Under the pieces are notes generated by a model. That model made no database searches, had not been told where the DNA came from, and saw only the letters and a program-made list of their open reading frames with translations. Source: a virus. From it: a stretch of DNA of 25,104 bases. Of the stretch, positions 2,695 through 13,959 are shown piece by piece. Location of the stretch: the IMG/VR virus record IMGVR_UViG_3300035698_001575, positions 1 to 25,104 of that record, one strand, 5' to 3'. Numbering within the stretch: the stretch's first letter is position 1; every line of letters begins with the position of its first letter. Position numbers and translations under genes: made by a program.

Positions 2695-3057
2695 CTATAT
2701 TAAAATTGTATTGCTTATAGTAGTATCATCTACTAAAACTTTATAAGATACCTGAAAGTTTCTTGTATCTGGAAAATATTGTGTTTCAAAACTAATTACT
2801 TCTTGTATTTCTGTAATGGAAACAATCTGTGTTAAAAAGATGGTATTTATTAAATTGATATCTGGATTTTTTACTAAGACTGATTCAAAATATGGTACAC
2901 CTTGTGTTCTATCTAGAAACCATTCGCCTTTAAAAAAAGAAAGTTTGTTTTCCATTTTAGTACTGACAAATTCACTATTATTTTCAGTGAATTTTAAATC
3001 AAAATTTGTAGTAGTAGCTAAATCTTTTGTATTAAAATCTAAATATAAATCTTTCAT
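2695..3057 (-). CDS. Sheath initiator / baseplate wedge protein, gp46/gp25-like
   Basis: 120 aa. The core FFKGEWFLDRTQGVPYFESVLVKNPD matches the conserved block of Mu gp46, P2 gpW and T4 gp25-type proteins, which sit at the baseplate centre and template the first sheath ring. Residues 1-25 (DLYLDFNTKDLATTTNFDL) also fit the family. It lies between the PAAR-like gene (2 bp gap) and the J-like gene (12 bp gap), the usual order. The protein is small, as expected. A generic baseplate protein is the only realistic alternative. Confidence 0.82.
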   Translation of the reverse strand: MKDLYLDFNTKDLATTTNFDLKFTENNSEFVSTKMENKLSFFKGEWFLDRTQGVPYFESVLVKNPDINLINTIFLTQIVSITEIQEVISFETQYFPDTRNFQVSYKVLVDDTTISNTILI

Positions 3058-3058
3058 A

Positions 3059-3457
3059 TTATTCTCCTGTTATCTTGGTTTGCCCTGCAGCTATAACCTC
3101 TACAGTTATGTTATATGTACAGGCTTTAGTACCACTTGGTGACGTTGGTTCTGTACCGGTCATTAAGATTGGAACTAGATTTTTATCACCTGTTCTAATT
3201 ACCGACTTGTTTTCTACTTTATTTTTAATAGATGTAGGTACTATACTACCACCACCCGTAGCCTTTGCAGAAGTTCCGCAAGATCCGTTTACACCATTAG
3301 ATACAGCTATAATCATATCACCACTATATATACCTTTACTTTCTGGGACTTTTTTAGCTTTTATAGATGGTAAAGTGGTTATTGATATATCACCAGTTCC
3401 CCCGCCTGCTTGAATTGATAATGTACAACCATCTACAGCAAGTTCTTTTTTAGCCAT
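3059..3457 (-). CDS. PAAR-like spike-tip protein
   Basis: 132 aa, rich in Gly, Ser and Thr. It contains VDGCTLSI near the start, then KGIYSGDMIIAVS, GSCGTSAKATGGGSIVPTS, and KSVIRTGDKNLVPI. Short beta hairpins with a late RTGD-type turn are characteristic of PAAR and PAAR-like tips. Its ATG overlaps the TAA of the spike gene (TAATG), so the two are translationally coupled, as expected if it caps that spike. Four cysteines (in GCT, SCG and ACT contexts) could hold a metal, but this is not proven. The PAAR-like call rests on pattern and position. Confidence 0.62.
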   Translation of the reverse strand: MAKKELAVDGCTLSIQAGGGTGDISITTLPSIKAKKVPESKGIYSGDMIIAVSNGVNGSCGTSAKATGGGSIVPTSIKNKVENKSVIRTGDKNLVPILMTGTEPTSPSGTKACTYNITVEVIAAGQTKITGE

Positions 3458-5766: not shown

Positions 5767-7464
5767 TTATACCTTCCTAGCGACTAATAATTTTTGCAAT
5801 TCAATTTGGAATATTGCTTGTGCATCCTGTACACCTCTTTTTGTCTGTGCTGGATCCCCTGCTCCTGTTACGTTTATATTACTATTAATATTTACATTAC
5901 CAGCGGATTTATCAGGTGTAAGTCCTGCAATAATTTGTGCCGTATCAATAGGTTCTAGGTTATCTATATTCACTCCTGGGATACTGTTTAATCTATTGAT
6001 AGTTTTATTTAATATTTCAAAAACCCAATTTATTATGCCTAATATACCCGTGATTATCTTCATCATTGAATCGTTAATAAACTTAGTTACTTTTTCAAAT
6101 ACGCTACCAAGTTTTTCAAAGATAGGAATTAAATATTTACTTACAACCGCTACTAAAAAACGTACTAGTTTAATTATAAGTGCAATACCTTTTCCCATGA
6201 TTTTAAAAAACACCATAAACATCATCATTCTAAGTCTAATAGATAGTGCTATCATTTTTGCCATAAAACTTATAATAGGTTTTAATAAGGGCATGATTAA
6301 AGCTAAAACATCCGATATTAACGCACCTAGTTCTTCAAATATTGGTAACATATCACCAAATACTTCCGCTAGTATATCTCCTATAGCACCTAGAACTTCA
6401 TTAGCAATTATAACCAACAATTCTATAATAGTACTTAGTACTTCTACTATAGGTTTTAATGTAGCTTGTAGTATTGCCATTAGGGGTGTAACTATTTGTG
6501 TAATTACTTCCCCTAGTTTTTCAAACAAAGGAATTAACGGATCTACTAAACTAAATATATTAGCTATTATTTCTAGTAATGGATTTATTATAGCAAATAA
6601 TGGTTTAATTAAACCTAGTAATACAGGTACTAATTTCATCACTATTTTTATAATAGGTAGTAATGCTTTTGCAATAGATTCTAACATAGAACTAAGGTCT
6701 GTCTGTATCAGTGTTATTAAATCCAAAGCTATTTCTTTTATCGGTTCTAGTAAAGTAGTACCTACACCTGCTAATGCTAGTTTTACGTTATCTTTTAAAG
6801 TACTGATTATTCCAAATAATGTTTTACTTTGTTTTATCATTCCTTCAAAAAATATACCGCCTTCTCCTGTCATTGATTTAAATGCTTGTGTTACGTCATC
6901 AGCTGATATAGCACCTTTACTAACTGCTTTGAAAAATTCATCACCTACTAAACCAGTTTGTTCTTTTAGTGTTTTAAATATCGGGATTCCACGTTCAGCA
7001 AACATGTTTAATTCTTCCATAGATGCTTTACCTTTTGTTTGTGTTTTACCGTAGGCTAATACTAAACCTTTTAATTTTTCAGTATTTCCACCGGCGGAAT
7101 CCCCTAACATTTTCATTCTATCAATTACCTGATCTTCAGCAACACCAAACGATAAGAGGTTCTGTGTACCTGTAGCTAAATCTTGTAAAGAAAATGGTGT
7201 AGATGATGCGAAATCTTTTAATTTTTCCATCATTTCAGTAGCCTTATCTGCACTACCTAACATAACTTCAAACTGTACCGTAAGCATTTCCATGTCGCCA
7301 GCAATCTTAATAGCCGATACACCTATAGCCAGTATACTACCAACTATAGCTGCACCTACTGCTACCATAGAGCCTTTAAACTTAGAAATCTTTTTTTCTG
7401 CACCTTTCATTTTAGCTTCATCTACTTCAAAGCCTATTACATTTACAAGTTCCCTAACTGTCAT
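5767..7464 (-). CDS. Tail tape measure protein
   Basis: 565 aa from the ATG at 7464, chosen because AGAGG lies 7 nt upstream and the stop of the chaperone extension is 1 bp away. A longer in-frame start (7554) would overlap that gene. The N-terminal third has the tape measure signature (AGDMEMLTVQFEVMLGSADK, FASSTPFSLQDLATGTQNLL, KGKASMEELNMFAERGIP). Residues ~250-480 are almost pure hydrophobic helix (Leu, Ile, Val), likely membrane-active on ejection. It is short for the family, so the tail should be short. It directly follows the frameshifting chaperone gene, as in most tailed phages. Confidence 0.95.
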   Translation of the reverse strand: MTVRELVNVIGFEVDEAKMKGAEKKISKFKGSMVAVGAAIVGSILAIGVSAIKIAGDMEMLTVQFEVMLGSADKATEMMEKLKDFASSTPFSLQDLATGTQNLLSFGVAEDQVIDRMKMLGDSAGGNTEKLKGLVLAYGKTQTKGKASMEELNMFAERGIPIFKTLKEQTGLVGDEFFKAVSKGAISADDVTQAFKSMTGEGGIFFEGMIKQSKTLFGIISTLKDNVKLALAGVGTTLLEPIKEIALDLITLIQTDLSSMLESIAKALLPIIKIVMKLVPVLLGLIKPLFAIINPLLEIIANIFSLVDPLIPLFEKLGEVITQIVTPLMAILQATLKPIVEVLSTIIELLVIIANEVLGAIGDILAEVFGDMLPIFEELGALISDVLALIMPLLKPIISFMAKMIALSIRLRMMMFMVFFKIMGKGIALIIKLVRFLVAVVSKYLIPIFEKLGSVFEKVTKFINDSMMKIITGILGIINWVFEILNKTINRLNSIPGVNIDNLEPIDTAQIIAGLTPDKSAGNVNINSNINVTGAGDPAQTKRGVQDAQAIFQIELQKLLVARKV

Positions 7465-7465
7465 A

Positions 7466-7777
7466 TTAAAACCTCTTACCAGCTTGTTTTTGTTTAGAAC
7501 TTTCATCCATTTTTTTGTCCTGATATGCATTAGATACTTTTTCGTAATCATCAAACATATCTAGTACAGCATTAGCTTTTTGAATATCTACAAAACTAAT
7601 GCTATCTTGATGTAATAGAAGCTCCATATCTTTTGATACTAACCTCCAATACATCCACTCTTCTTCAATTTCTGGATCTAATGTACCCACTGGACCCATA
7701 TCTTTTATTAATTTTGACCGTTTAAGTTCAAATTCTTTAGAAAGTTTGTTTTCAACGTTCCTCCACCCACCAATTCG
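7466..7777 (-). CDS. -1 frame extension of the tail assembly chaperone (T domain)
   Basis: This frame has no stop from the slippery site at 7777 to the TAA at 7466. It would add 103 residues to the first 136 of the upstream gene, giving a 239-aa fusion. Residues near the junction read RIGGWRNVENKLSKEF; the rest is acidic and helical (DPEIEEEWMYWRLVSKDMEL). An ATG at 7699 could give 77 residues alone, but it has only a weak ribosome site. Known logic (lambda G/GT): the short form coats the tape measure and the fusion recruits tube protein. Position, directly before the tape measure, fits exactly. Confidence 0.72.
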   Translation of the reverse strand, partial: RIGGWRNVENKLSKEFELKRSKLIKDMGPVGTLDPEIEEEWMYWRLVSKDMELLLHQDSISFVDIQKANAVLDMFDDYEKVSNAYQDKKMDESSKQKQAGKRF

Positions 7778-8184
7778 AAAAAAGCAAACCTATTCGCCTT
7801 CATAATTTCAACTAAAAGTTTAATTATTGTAAGGTTCTTACCGGCGAATACATCGTTAAATATAATTTCTTTATTTAACGGTTGTACACCCCCATCTTCA
7901 CCATTCATTCCTACAAAGTTTATAGATGTTTTCTCTACTAAATTGGAAACCAATCTTTCAAGTGTAGCGTCATCCAAATCTAGTAGCATACTTTGTACAA
8001 CATCTGCTAGACCTTTCATATCCATATCACTTTCTGCTACATCTTTTACACCGTCCAATGCTTTTAGCATCGGCGCCATTAAAGTTAATATTCTTTTCTC
8101 TAATTTTAGACCAACCATTCCCCCAAATTGTAAAATATGAAATTTTAAACCGTCTATTTCAACATCAATTGTGCTAAGTGCCAT
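7708..8184 (-). CDS. Tail assembly chaperone (G-type product)
   Basis: 158 aa, mostly helical (LKLEKRILTLMAPMLKALDG, LVEIMKANRFAFFELVGGG), in the fixed slot between tube and tape measure genes. These chaperones bind the tape measure during tail assembly and are absent from the virion. Codons 135-136 (TTT TTC), preceded by T, form the slippery heptamer T-TTT-TTC in the zero frame; the -1 frame is open beyond it. Without slippage the protein ends 22 residues later. Its ATG lies at the stop of the tube gene. The chaperone call rests on position, size, helical content and frameshift layout. Confidence 0.78.
   Translation of the reverse strand: MALSTIDVEIDGLKFHILQFGGMVGLKLEKRILTLMAPMLKALDGVKDVAESDMDMKGLADVVQSMLLDLDDATLERLVSNLVEKTSINFVGMNGEDGGVQPLNKEIIFNDVFAGKNLTIIKLLVEIMKANRFAFFELVGGGTLKTNFLKNLNLNGQN
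7760..7783 (-). promoter_or_regulatory. Programmed -1 frameshift signal: slippery heptamer plus G-rich stimulator
   Basis: On the minus strand T-TTT-TTC (7783 to 7777) is in the zero frame of the chaperone gene: 8184 minus 7779 equals 135 codons. After a 5-nt spacer GAATT follows GGTGGGTGGAGG (7771 to 7760), which fits a two-tetrad G-quadruplex with 1-nt loops, at a distance typical for frameshift stimulators. An SD-like AAGG also lies upstream. The heptamer is the XXXYYYZ type used in many phage chaperones. The G-quadruplex role is inference. Confidence 0.68.
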
Positions 8185-8618
8185 TATACATTACCTCCAA
8201 TGTATGTAACCGTTTGTGCGCAAGTAAGTTTCCATTCTCTACCTTCTATTCCATCACTATATGTGATATCAGGTTCACACATAATATAAGCATAAGGGGA
8301 AAAGAAAAGAGAAGTTCCACTACTATCTTTTACAGTAAGTGGTAAAACACCCGCATTTGTTTCTTTATCAAGTAAGTGTTGCACCATAAATAAATCATTT
8401 GTTATACTAGTTTGCATAATAGTAATAGTTACTTCTTTACTAGTGACATTTTTATTTACTCTGTTTGTAGTTCCATCAGCACCAACTACCAATTCAAATG
8501 CTTCTCCTGTAGTAGCATTAAAAAATGTACCACTCATAAAACCCACTACTAAAATAGGTCCTAATATAATGGTAACTTTTTTCGGATCGTATGTTTTTAG
8601 TGTTAAATCATTAGCCAT
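8184..8618 (-). CDS. Tail tube protein, DUF3277-like
   Basis: 144 aa. The order YDPKKVTIILGPILVVGFMSG, then VVGADGTTNRVNKN, then TITIMQTSITNDLFM, and a late REWKLTCAQ is the DUF3277 pattern: a beta-barrel tube subunit of contractile tails. It lies directly after the sheath gene and before the chaperone and tape measure, the canonical place. It would form the hexameric inner tube through which DNA passes. The start has a GGAGAACAT-type ribosome site. Confidence 0.84.
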   Translation of the reverse strand: MANDLTLKTYDPKKVTIILGPILVVGFMSGTFFNATTGEAFELVVGADGTTNRVNKNVTSKEVTITIMQTSITNDLFMVQHLLDKETNAGVLPLTVKDSSGTSLFFSPYAYIMCEPDITYSDGIEGREWKLTCAQTVTYIGGNV

Positions 8619-8641: not shown

Positions 8642-9985
8642 TTAAACTGATACAGTACCTTGTATTTGTACTGTATGAATTGCACCCTGTAGTGTTGCTG
8701 TAAACTTTACATCTGGCAAGTTTCTAGCTATTTTATCAGCTTGTGATATAGTAGCAACTTTTGGGACTGTGACTACATACCCTGTAGTAAGTAAACCCGC
8801 CGTGACTGCATTACTTAATGATTCACGTACAAGTCCTTCAATAATTGTAATTCCATCGTCTGTATAAGGTATCTTTCTAGTATTAACTAATCTACCAAAG
8901 ATATTTTCAGCCATTCTAGCTTCTAACCAGTCTAAACCTCTAATGATATCTATGTATTCACCACCTACTACAGTTCCAGATTCTGTAATGTTTACACCGG
9001 CAGTAGTTGTATAAATGTTACAATTTTTGTCTAGTGCAAATGTACGTTCTCCACTTGTTAAAGCGTAACTGGATAAGCCTGCAATCCCTTTATATGCCCA
9101 AGTTTGTGAGCCAGGATCGTAAGGTAATGCTTCACCAAAAAATCCCTCTGCAAAATAGTTATCATCTTGTAAACCTGAATGATAACAAGCTACTGTTCTA
9201 TCAAGTGATTTGTCTTTTAAAACACTTACTATATCAATAGTAGAATTAGTAACTACATCAGCATCATTAGTAGTAAAAAAGTAAATCTTCTTTTGTGTTT
9301 CTGCCCATGTAGAAACCTCTTCAATATCTTCACCTGTTTCAAATGATATTGTAGCTGTAGGTTGTGTCGCACCTAAAGTAACTACAGAAGTTAATAGTGT
9401 GATATCACCACTTTCAATTTCTACCAGTAAAGTTCTACCTGTAACATCTGCGGGATCTACTGTAGCTGTAGAATCTGTAATGTCTGCTTCTATTTGTGCC
9501 TTTAAAGCCAACATAGTAGTAGCGTGATCTGTATCAAATGTTACTGAACTAATTGCTACACCATTTACAGACACATTTATTACATTATCTGTAACAAAAT
9601 CGCCAGTATAAACGATTTTTCCCTCTGCCGTTGGGTTAATAGTAAAAGCATACCAATCATTAGACTGAGATACAATAGCAGTCAATGCCTCTGTCCAAGT
9701 TTCTACTAGTTCACTTTTAGGGTTTTTCCTTCCAATCATAATCCTGTCAACCGATGGATTCTGTGCAAATACAAAATTAGCTCGTTTGTATTCTTCTGTA
9801 GTTGTTCCCCATCCATCACTCACCATTTCTGCCAAATCGCTATAGTATCTATAACGGTCAAAAGTAGCTGTAGTAGCGTCGCTTGCGAATTCCGATATGA
9901 TTCCCGGCGTACCAAATCCAGCTACCGCAATGGATTGCGTTTCCCTTGTAATACTGATCTGTACAATGTCTGTAATATTACTCAT
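8642..9985 (-). CDS. Tail sheath protein, DUF3383-like, with inserted domain
   Basis: 447 aa from the ATG at 9985 (AGGAGGT 5 nt upstream; the codon before it is TTG). N-terminal QISITRETQSIAVAGFGTPG, then YKRANFVFAQNPSVDRIMIG, and C-terminal VPKVATISQADKIARNLPDV are the sheath signature (DUF3383). Residues ~125-216 form an extra beta domain (VYTGDFVTDNVINVSVNGVA) that recurs in the cement protein with identical DNA over 79 bp. The domain is probably on the sheath exterior. The gene overlaps the stop of the tail terminator gene. The sheath contracts to drive the tube. Confidence 0.93.
   Translation of the reverse strand: MSNITDIVQISITRETQSIAVAGFGTPGIISEFASDATTATFDRYRYYSDLAEMVSDGWGTTTEEYKRANFVFAQNPSVDRIMIGRKNPKSELVETWTEALTAIVSQSNDWYAFTINPTAEGKIVYTGDFVTDNVINVSVNGVAISSVTFDTDHATTMLALKAQIEADITDSTATVDPADVTGRTLLVEIESGDITLLTSVVTLGATQPTATISFETGEDIEEVSTWAETQKKIYFFTTNDADVVTNSTIDIVSVLKDKSLDRTVACYHSGLQDDNYFAEGFFGEALPYDPGSQTWAYKGIAGLSSYALTSGERTFALDKNCNIYTTTAGVNITESGTVVGGEYIDIIRGLDWLEARMAENIFGRLVNTRKIPYTDDGITIIEGLVRESLSNAVTAGLLTTGYVVTVPKVATISQADKIARNLPDVKFTATLQGAIHTVQIQGTVSV
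9535..9613 (-). repeat. 79-bp duplicated segment, copy 1 (in sheath gene)
   Basis: Bases 9535-9613 are identical to 13704-13782 as read by eye, in the same reading frame, and encode VYTGDFVTDNVINVSVNGVA and the next six residues. Identity ends sharply at both edges, though weaker likeness continues across the domain (for example CACCTAAAGTAACTAC is also shared). Confidence 0.93.
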
Positions 9986-13209: not shown

Positions 13210-13959
13210 TTATGCCCAAACAATTACAGAAGCTAATTTTTTAGAACCTTTTAGTTCTACCTTAGCTAAATTATCTGAACCTATTACTGTATTATCTGAT
13301 TTAAATATAACGCCAACGTCAACTCCGTTTGTATCTGAGAATAATGATCCGTTTACTTTAGCAATTTCAAAAGCATTTGCAGTATTATCATTAAATGTCC
13401 AAATAATACCAATTGCCATAACTGAAACAGCCTCATCTTGTAAATACCCAGCAGTAGTACAACTACCTGATTTTTGTATAAACATAGCTACACCAACAAA
13501 TGCCTGATCTGAAATGTATGTAGCTGATGCCGTAACTTGTGTCTCACCTAAAGTAACTACCGAACTAGATACATTATTAACATACCTAGTCCTAATTAAA
13601 ATAGTTCTATTGTTTACATCTGTAACATCCAACACCGCTTCTACACCTGTTAAACCATCAATTCCAGCAACTACTAGTGCAATAGTAGTAGTGTGGTTTG
13701 TAGCAAATGTTACTGAACTAATTGCTACACCATTTACAGACACATTTATTACATTATCTGTAACAAAATCGCCAGTATAAACTAGAGTAGCTGTATCTAG
13801 TTTATATGTACTAACTTTATCCTCCTCACCTAAATATGAGTAGACTGGTACACCAAATGCAATGTCTTCTTGTGCTGATTTACTTTCTATTCTAGTTACA
13901 GAGTTGTTATCTGCTTTCAAACCCGCAACGGCTATATTCATATCTCCGTATGCTCCCAT
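13210..13959 (-). CDS. Structural cement / head decoration protein with inserted domain
   Basis: 249 aa. The N-terminus (NSVTRIESKSAQEDIAFGVP, VYSYLGEEDKV) and the part after residue 150 (ISDQAFVGVAMFIQKSG, EAVSVMAIG) fit the Gp24-type cement proteins encoded just before the capsid gene in Mu-like heads. Residues ~58-147 are an insertion, VYTGDFVTDNVINVSVNGVA onward, nearly the same as in the sheath. Its DNA is identical to the sheath copy for 79 bp, so the duplication or conversion was recent. Family role: locks capsomers; the insert is likely surface-exposed. Confidence 0.8.
   Translation of the reverse strand: MGAYGDMNIAVAGLKADNNSVTRIESKSAQEDIAFGVPVYSYLGEEDKVSTYKLDTATLVYTGDFVTDNVINVSVNGVAISSVTFATNHTTTIALVVAGIDGLTGVEAVLDVTDVNNRTILIRTRYVNNVSSSVVTLGETQVTASATYISDQAFVGVAMFIQKSGSCTTAGYLQDEAVSVMAIGIIWTFNDNTANAFEIAKVNGSLFSDTNGVDVGVIFKSDNTVIGSDNLAKVELKGSKKLASVIVWA
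13704..13782 (-). repeat. 79-bp duplicated segment, copy 2 (in cement gene)
   Basis: Identical to 9535-9613 in the sheath gene, same frame, constant offset 4169. On either side the two genes diverge at once, although the domains stay recognisably alike at the protein level. Confidence 0.93.

Follow-up and report, generated by a model that had tools for sequence, protein, structure and literature searches.

A predicted programmed -1 frameshift in a phage tail assembly chaperone gene, with a G-rich block as candidate stimulator

The tail assembly chaperone gene in a 25,104-nucleotide stretch of viral DNA, the whole of which is termed the window here, very probably uses a programmed -1 frameshift. 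A slippery heptamer in the zero frame and the open -1 frame beyond it are both kept in diverged relatives, and the -1 domains of metagenomic lineages are homologous; the case for a programmed frameshift is therefore solid. A G-rich block lies shortly downstream of the heptamer, and the chances that it contributes to the frameshift as a stimulator appear evenly balanced; that it would do so by way of a folded quadruplex is a more tentative proposal.

The chaperone locus and its frameshift site

The chaperone ORF was read directly from the minus strand of the window (Table 1). It matches PF21822 Phage_TAC_15 with an E value of 2.3e-11 (44.7 bits vs. a cut-off of 22) and phrog_1613 with an E value of 1e-12, both of which are tail assembly chaperones. 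The gene is flanked by a sheath gene and a tube-like gene on one side and by the tape measure gene on the other, which is the gene order of the G/GT type, and the remaining window is the structural module of a contractile-tail phage. The family matched by the tube-like protein, phrog_280, carries the name virion structural protein, and we infer a tube role from the position of the gene between sheath and chaperone.

Table 1. Features of the chaperone locus in the window.
Feature	Position	Strand	Basis
Tail tube-like structural protein gene, 5' of chaperone	8184..8618	-	phrog_280, E 5e-31
Tail assembly chaperone, zero-frame product (TAC-N / gpG analogue), 158 aa	7708..8184	-	ORF, PF21822 and phrog_1613
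Weak Shine-Dalgarno-like AAGG, 13 nt upstream of heptamer, possible auxiliary	7797..7800	-	direct reading
Slippery heptamer T_TTT_TTC, in frame (X_XXY_YYZ)	7777..7783	-	read GCT TTT TTC
5-nt spacer GAATT	7772..7776	-	direct reading
G-rich block GGTGGGTGGAGG, potential two-tetrad G-quadruplex, candidate stimulator	7760..7771	-	direct reading
-1 frame extension (T domain of TAC-NC / gpGT analogue), 103 codons and stop	7466..7777	-	open frame, homologous domain
Tape measure protein gene	5767..7464	-	phrog_9959, E 2e-49; TMP_3, E 4e-28; ATG at 7464

The -1 frame starts RIGGWR and ends with a TAA (7468-7466) 1 nt before the tape measure start; the predicted fusion comprises 136 + 103 = 239 aa. A first-pass annotation had given the heptamer at 7783-7777, a 103-codon -1 frame, a 239-aa fusion, and a G block after 5 nt, all of which were right, and it had called the genome AT-rich, which agrees with a GC content of 32%. 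Sixty-two in-frame XXXYYYZ heptamers occur in the genes of the window; the one in the chaperone gene is the sole TTTTTTC and has the longest open -1 frame among them (103 codons vs. 38 for the next). No family was matched in an Rfam search over the frameshift site, and a PHROG search with the T domain gave no match.

We infer slippage, and any level it would reach, from this anatomy: the tRNAs on TTT and TTC (7782-7777) would slip back one base, and the G-rich block 5 nt past the heptamer would probably make this more frequent by acting as an obstacle at the ribosome's mRNA entrance. It could act either as a folded two-tetrad G-quadruplex or as a plain G-rich stretch, and it occupies the spot where several relatives carry a hairpin.

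The structural genes also contain a repeat: 101 nt of the tail sheath gene (9513-9613) are 96% identical to 13682-13782 in a head-side gene (13210-13959, encoding VYTGDFVTDNVINVSVNGVAISSV...), and a further matching pair lies at 9354-9396 and 13529-13571, respectively. The same repeat is 97% identical in L001 and only 77% in L002, both near-identical contigs described below, and it suggests a recent duplication or gene conversion, with a domain common to a tail and a head protein. The nearest solved fold to the chaperone model in a PDB fold search was 5ir0 (TM-score 0.67 by target length, probability 1.00, E 0.07), a protein encoded as ORF19 by a PICI-like satellite of Vibrio cholerae. With an E value of 0.07, it was set aside as a fold assignment; a satellite protein with a likeness to a tail chaperone might nonetheless deserve attention.

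Relatives and conservation of the frame arrangement

Relatives were gathered from IMG/VR using the chaperone, the sheath, and growing alignments as queries. They comprise two near-identical contigs (L001/L011 and L002/L009), the diverged relatives L003, L017, L019, L021, L025, L028, L029, L032, L035, L036, L038, L054, and L056, and the more distant L024; the L003 contig is also present as L010 and L014, and that of L036 as L037. The named phages with a distantly related chaperone are the V5 group, Otagovirus (phiPsa374), and FP_Brigit. Searches of genome collections by protein and by DNA pattern yielded no relative, nor did a plasmid search, and none was found in named-phage searches with the T domain and some of the chaperone queries.

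At the homologous place, every listed relative except phiPsa374 holds an in-frame heptamer, in the versions TTTTTTC, CCCTTTC (C_CCT_TTC), TTTTTTA (L024), and TTTTTTG (L056); the phiPsa374 site, GGTTTTTC, departs from the XXXYYYZ form. Past the heptamer, the -1 frame of the diverged relatives is open, usually as far as the tape measure gene, and the sheath, tube-like, chaperone, and tape measure genes remain syntenic. The -1 product is homologous across the aligned metagenomic lineages: W5, N10, G28, G31, and D77, counted from the junction on, are invariant in an eight-lineage alignment, and an eleven-lineage alignment that begins after the Trp agrees with it. Chance and sequencing error are excluded for the frame arrangement because relatives keep the heptamer, the open -1 frame, and a homologous -1 product. 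The earlier proposal that this is a chaperone with a -1 frameshift is thus strongly backed by the position of the heptamer, the open frame, and the -1 domain in diverged relatives; loss of the heptamer or of the open frame in relatives, which would have spoken against it, was not seen, both being kept.

Two annotated phages may be read in the same way. In V5 (L007), the chaperone occupies 2483-2956, with T_TTT_TTC at 2851. The separately annotated hypothetical protein ORF50 (2848-3216) overlaps the chaperone in the -1 frame and is probably the frameshift extension. Faecalibacterium phage FP_Brigit (L057) has T_TTT_TTC at 2911-2917, followed 6 nt on by a 10-bp hairpin, and its chaperone and the next small hypothetical gene, annotated as two genes, are probably one frameshift pair.

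The G-rich block, hairpins, and competing explanations

A compact G motif was defined as 4xGG within 14 nt or less. One is found on the mRNA strand of the window, vs. 0.09 expected from Markov shuffles, and a compact 4xGG starts 4-13 nt after a given point at 0.08% of positions in the window's genome (across lineages, the frequency at random positions is 0.0008-0.0027). The compact motif is present at the same site in six lineages: the window (Table 1), L003 (GGTGGGTGGGTCGG), L017 (GGTGGGGGGTGGAGG), L032 (GGCAGGGGGTGG), L036 (GGTGGGGGGTGGCGG), and L025 (GGCGGAGGGTGG). The spacer from the heptamer to the first GG is 5 nt in 6/6 of these, and also in L028, L029, and L035, which, together with L038 and L056, carry looser G-rich versions. 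In the window, a G4-capable motif is present at about 5-8 nt past the heptamer. When the window was compared with L003 over 14 kb (their chaperones share 36% identity), a single significant DNA match appeared, 49 nt at 94% spanning the heptamer and the G block, although the protein 5' of the heptamer is also at its most conserved there. Within this matching stretch, 13 of 15 shared codons are identical vs. 7.4 expected (P 0.0014, with the region chosen post hoc).

Stems starting +4 to +10 past the heptamer were sought by an exhaustive closing-pair scan, with thresholds chosen once the data had been seen. The window has no stem of 4 bp or more that begins at these positions and closes within 56 nt, which bears out the first-pass remark that the usual stem-loop is missing, and its 60-nt region folds less stably than shuffles do (MFE z +1.66). 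The same scan found no stem at +4 to +10 in L003 and L017, and weak stems, matched by 17-18% of random positions, in L032 and L036. Good stems (0-11% of random positions) are present in L025, L029, L035, L038, L021, L019, L054, and FP_Brigit; L028 has none at +4 to +10, yet it folds further downstream (z -2.64), and V5 and L056 have no strong stem at +4 to +10. By lineage, a compact G block occurs without a hairpin in five and with one in one, seven have a hairpin alone, and three have neither (Fisher test, P = 0.059 one-sided and 0.12 two-sided, with post hoc thresholds). The compact G block underwent at least five state changes on the best topology of a nearly unresolved tree, on which an independent-pairs phylogenetic test of G block vs. 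hairpin has no power.

With five G blocks lacking a hairpin and eight hairpin lineages, the two may substitute for each other, and the pattern is suggestive, in small numbers, of an exchange of stimulators at one position. The stronger proposal, that a natural G-quadruplex is a downstream stimulator in this chaperone family and swaps with a hairpin at the same position, is put forward only tentatively. In L025 (2375-2430), a compact 4xGG and a strong hairpin occur together, the same G tracts forming the 5' arm; this lineage may represent a transitional state between the two types of stimulator.

When the quadruplex option of ViennaRNA was used, the 32 nt past the heptamer in the window folded at -10.4 kcal/mol vs. 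0.0 without it, the parameter set being approximate; L017, L032, and L036 also gain from the option, and L003 hardly does. In mammalian systems, G4s designed to lie 5 nt past a slippery site increase -1 frameshifting, and the best G4 spacer is 6-8 nt (PMC3919603). In reticulocyte lysate, frameshifting was 0.54% with (GGU)4, 2.7% with (GGA)4, and 4.5% with (GGGU)4 (PMC12710887); two-tetrad RNA quadruplexes are mostly weak stimulators in published tests, which counts against a role for the G block. A weak stimulator could suffice because a chaperone needs just a few per cent of fusion; the lambda chaperone ratio is 30:1 (PMC5009743). The first-pass suggestion that a G-quadruplex stimulates slippage is thus compatible with a block that recurs in six lineages, five of them without a hairpin, but its G tracts could be a by-product of Gly, Trp, and Arg codons in the overlapping frames, the tendency of hairpin and G block to exclude each other falls short of significance, and (GGU)4 RNA is a weak stimulator (PMC12710887). 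The alignment of relatives that it recommended upheld the heptamer, whereas the compact G block is confined to the six lineages.

The most serious alternative, to which we give somewhat less than an even chance, is that the frameshift is real and coding alone accounts for the G block, slippage needing the heptamer alone, plus perhaps its upstream context. The glycine codons of the zero-frame LVGGG tail and of the -1 RxGGW start overlap, and G tracts result. In a simulation in which synonymous codons were drawn for each encoded peptide and the compact 4xGG was scored, the -1 peptide alone yielded the motif with probability 1.0 in L003, L017, L036, and L025, where GGGW or GGWVG forces it, and with P 0.43 in the window, where the zero-frame peptide alone gave it in 13% of codon draws. 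In L032, however, the -1 peptide GRGW gives the motif with P 0.027 (zero-frame peptide, 0.30). The -1-frame Trp and the later Asn are invariant in the eight-lineage alignment even without a G4, and neither V5 nor L024 carries a compact G4 or a strong hairpin at the site, so a stimulator there may be dispensable. On the other hand, in the hairpin lineages the residues separating the R-x start from the Trp are QQG, RGH, GFG, GSY, or QGQEPL, and their zero-frame tails are unrelated, so the glycines are no fixed protein need. Both readings of the block are also predicted to be disordered: AlphaFold2 pLDDT is <50 for zero-frame residues 140-158 and -1-frame residues 1-7 (low-depth alignments, with the frames modelled apart and not as the fusion), and the block would therefore code for an unstructured tail or linker. 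Because the simulation yields the motif from the peptides, sequence alone cannot show selection on the RNA; the loss of the glycines in hairpin lineages and the disorder in both frames nevertheless make us lean towards an RNA role.

It is unlikely that the main stimulator is instead the internal AAGG, pairing with 16S rRNA as in E. coli dnaX. Like the window, dnaX combines a heptamer with a possible upstream Shine-Dalgarno-like element, but it carries a downstream hairpin, whereas none was found in the window, and the upstream element is lacking in several relatives. Besides the AAGG of the window, xAGG or GGAGG lies 13-16 nt upstream in L003, L017, L021, L019, L029, L038, L056, and V5; it is absent in L025, L028, L032, L035, L036, and L054, and as a family-wide stimulator the element was rejected on account of these six relatives. 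Moreover, the AAGG lies in codons for the conserved protein stretch E-[VI]-M-[KR]-x-N, and constraint on the protein is sufficient to account for it. L032 and L036, having neither the upstream element nor a good hairpin, offer the clearest setting for testing the G block.

Still less probable is a reading in which the G block pairs with a remote downstream strand, as the 5' side of a hairpin or pseudoknot. In L025 and L029 the G-rich block does supply the 5' arm for a hairpin of 8-13 bp, but the window has no closing stem at +4 to +10 in a scan of simple stems with partners within about 65 nt, and its weak 60-nt MFE also opposes this reading. Last, it is very improbable that no frameshift occurs and that the locus holds two separate genes, for which an internal ATG would give a 77-aa ORF (7699-7466), or a decayed or mis-assembled frame, since diverged genomes share the arrangement, the homologous -1 domains, and the in-frame heptamer in the same alignment column, and the two near-identical contigs match the window base for base over the site. 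Transcriptional slippage was set aside, the run being just six T and many relatives having CCCTTTC.

Known systems and significance

The frameshift itself is of a known kind and belongs with the chaperone frameshifts described earlier. The lambda heptamer is G_GGA_AAG; the window has another heptamer, another chaperone family, a contractile-tail gene set (DUF3383-type sheath), and a G-rich block, as opposed to the undefined context in lambda. Common to both are a chaperone gene directly before the tape measure gene, a -1 slip near the 3' end, and a long minor fusion with a C-terminal T domain (for its role, see PMC5009743). A 2025 paper on Pseudomonas phage Adele reports that Vandenendeviridae and Andersonviridae chaperones have a conserved -1 frameshift at a GTTTTT site, the -1 frame being conserved through to the tape measure, as it is here (PMC12846349); the window and its relatives have T_TTT_TTC or C_CCT_TTC and not GTTTTT. 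The Otagovirus phiPsa374, whose chaperone is distantly related by sequence to that of the window, has its site at the homologous place and no G block. Synthetic G4 frameshifting likewise involves a G-rich motif about 5 nt past a slippery heptamer (PMC3919603, PMC12710887), but those motifs were designed inserts in mammalian systems and strong effects needed the three-tetrad (GGGU)4, whereas the motif in the window is natural, two-tetrad, and from a phage.

A 2016 recoding review stated that natural use of a G-quadruplex for productive frameshifting was not known, but anticipated it (PMC5009743), and the 2013 synthetic study closed by leaving the question of natural use open (PMC3919603); we found no case of a natural G-quadruplex-stimulated frameshift in the open-access literature. 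Here, a single gene family offers G-block sites, hairpin sites, and one site with both at the same distance from the heptamer, so that a simple bacterial reporter could address the question directly. Were the G block to prove inert, the set would remain a clean example of overlapping frames creating a quadruplex-like motif without function.
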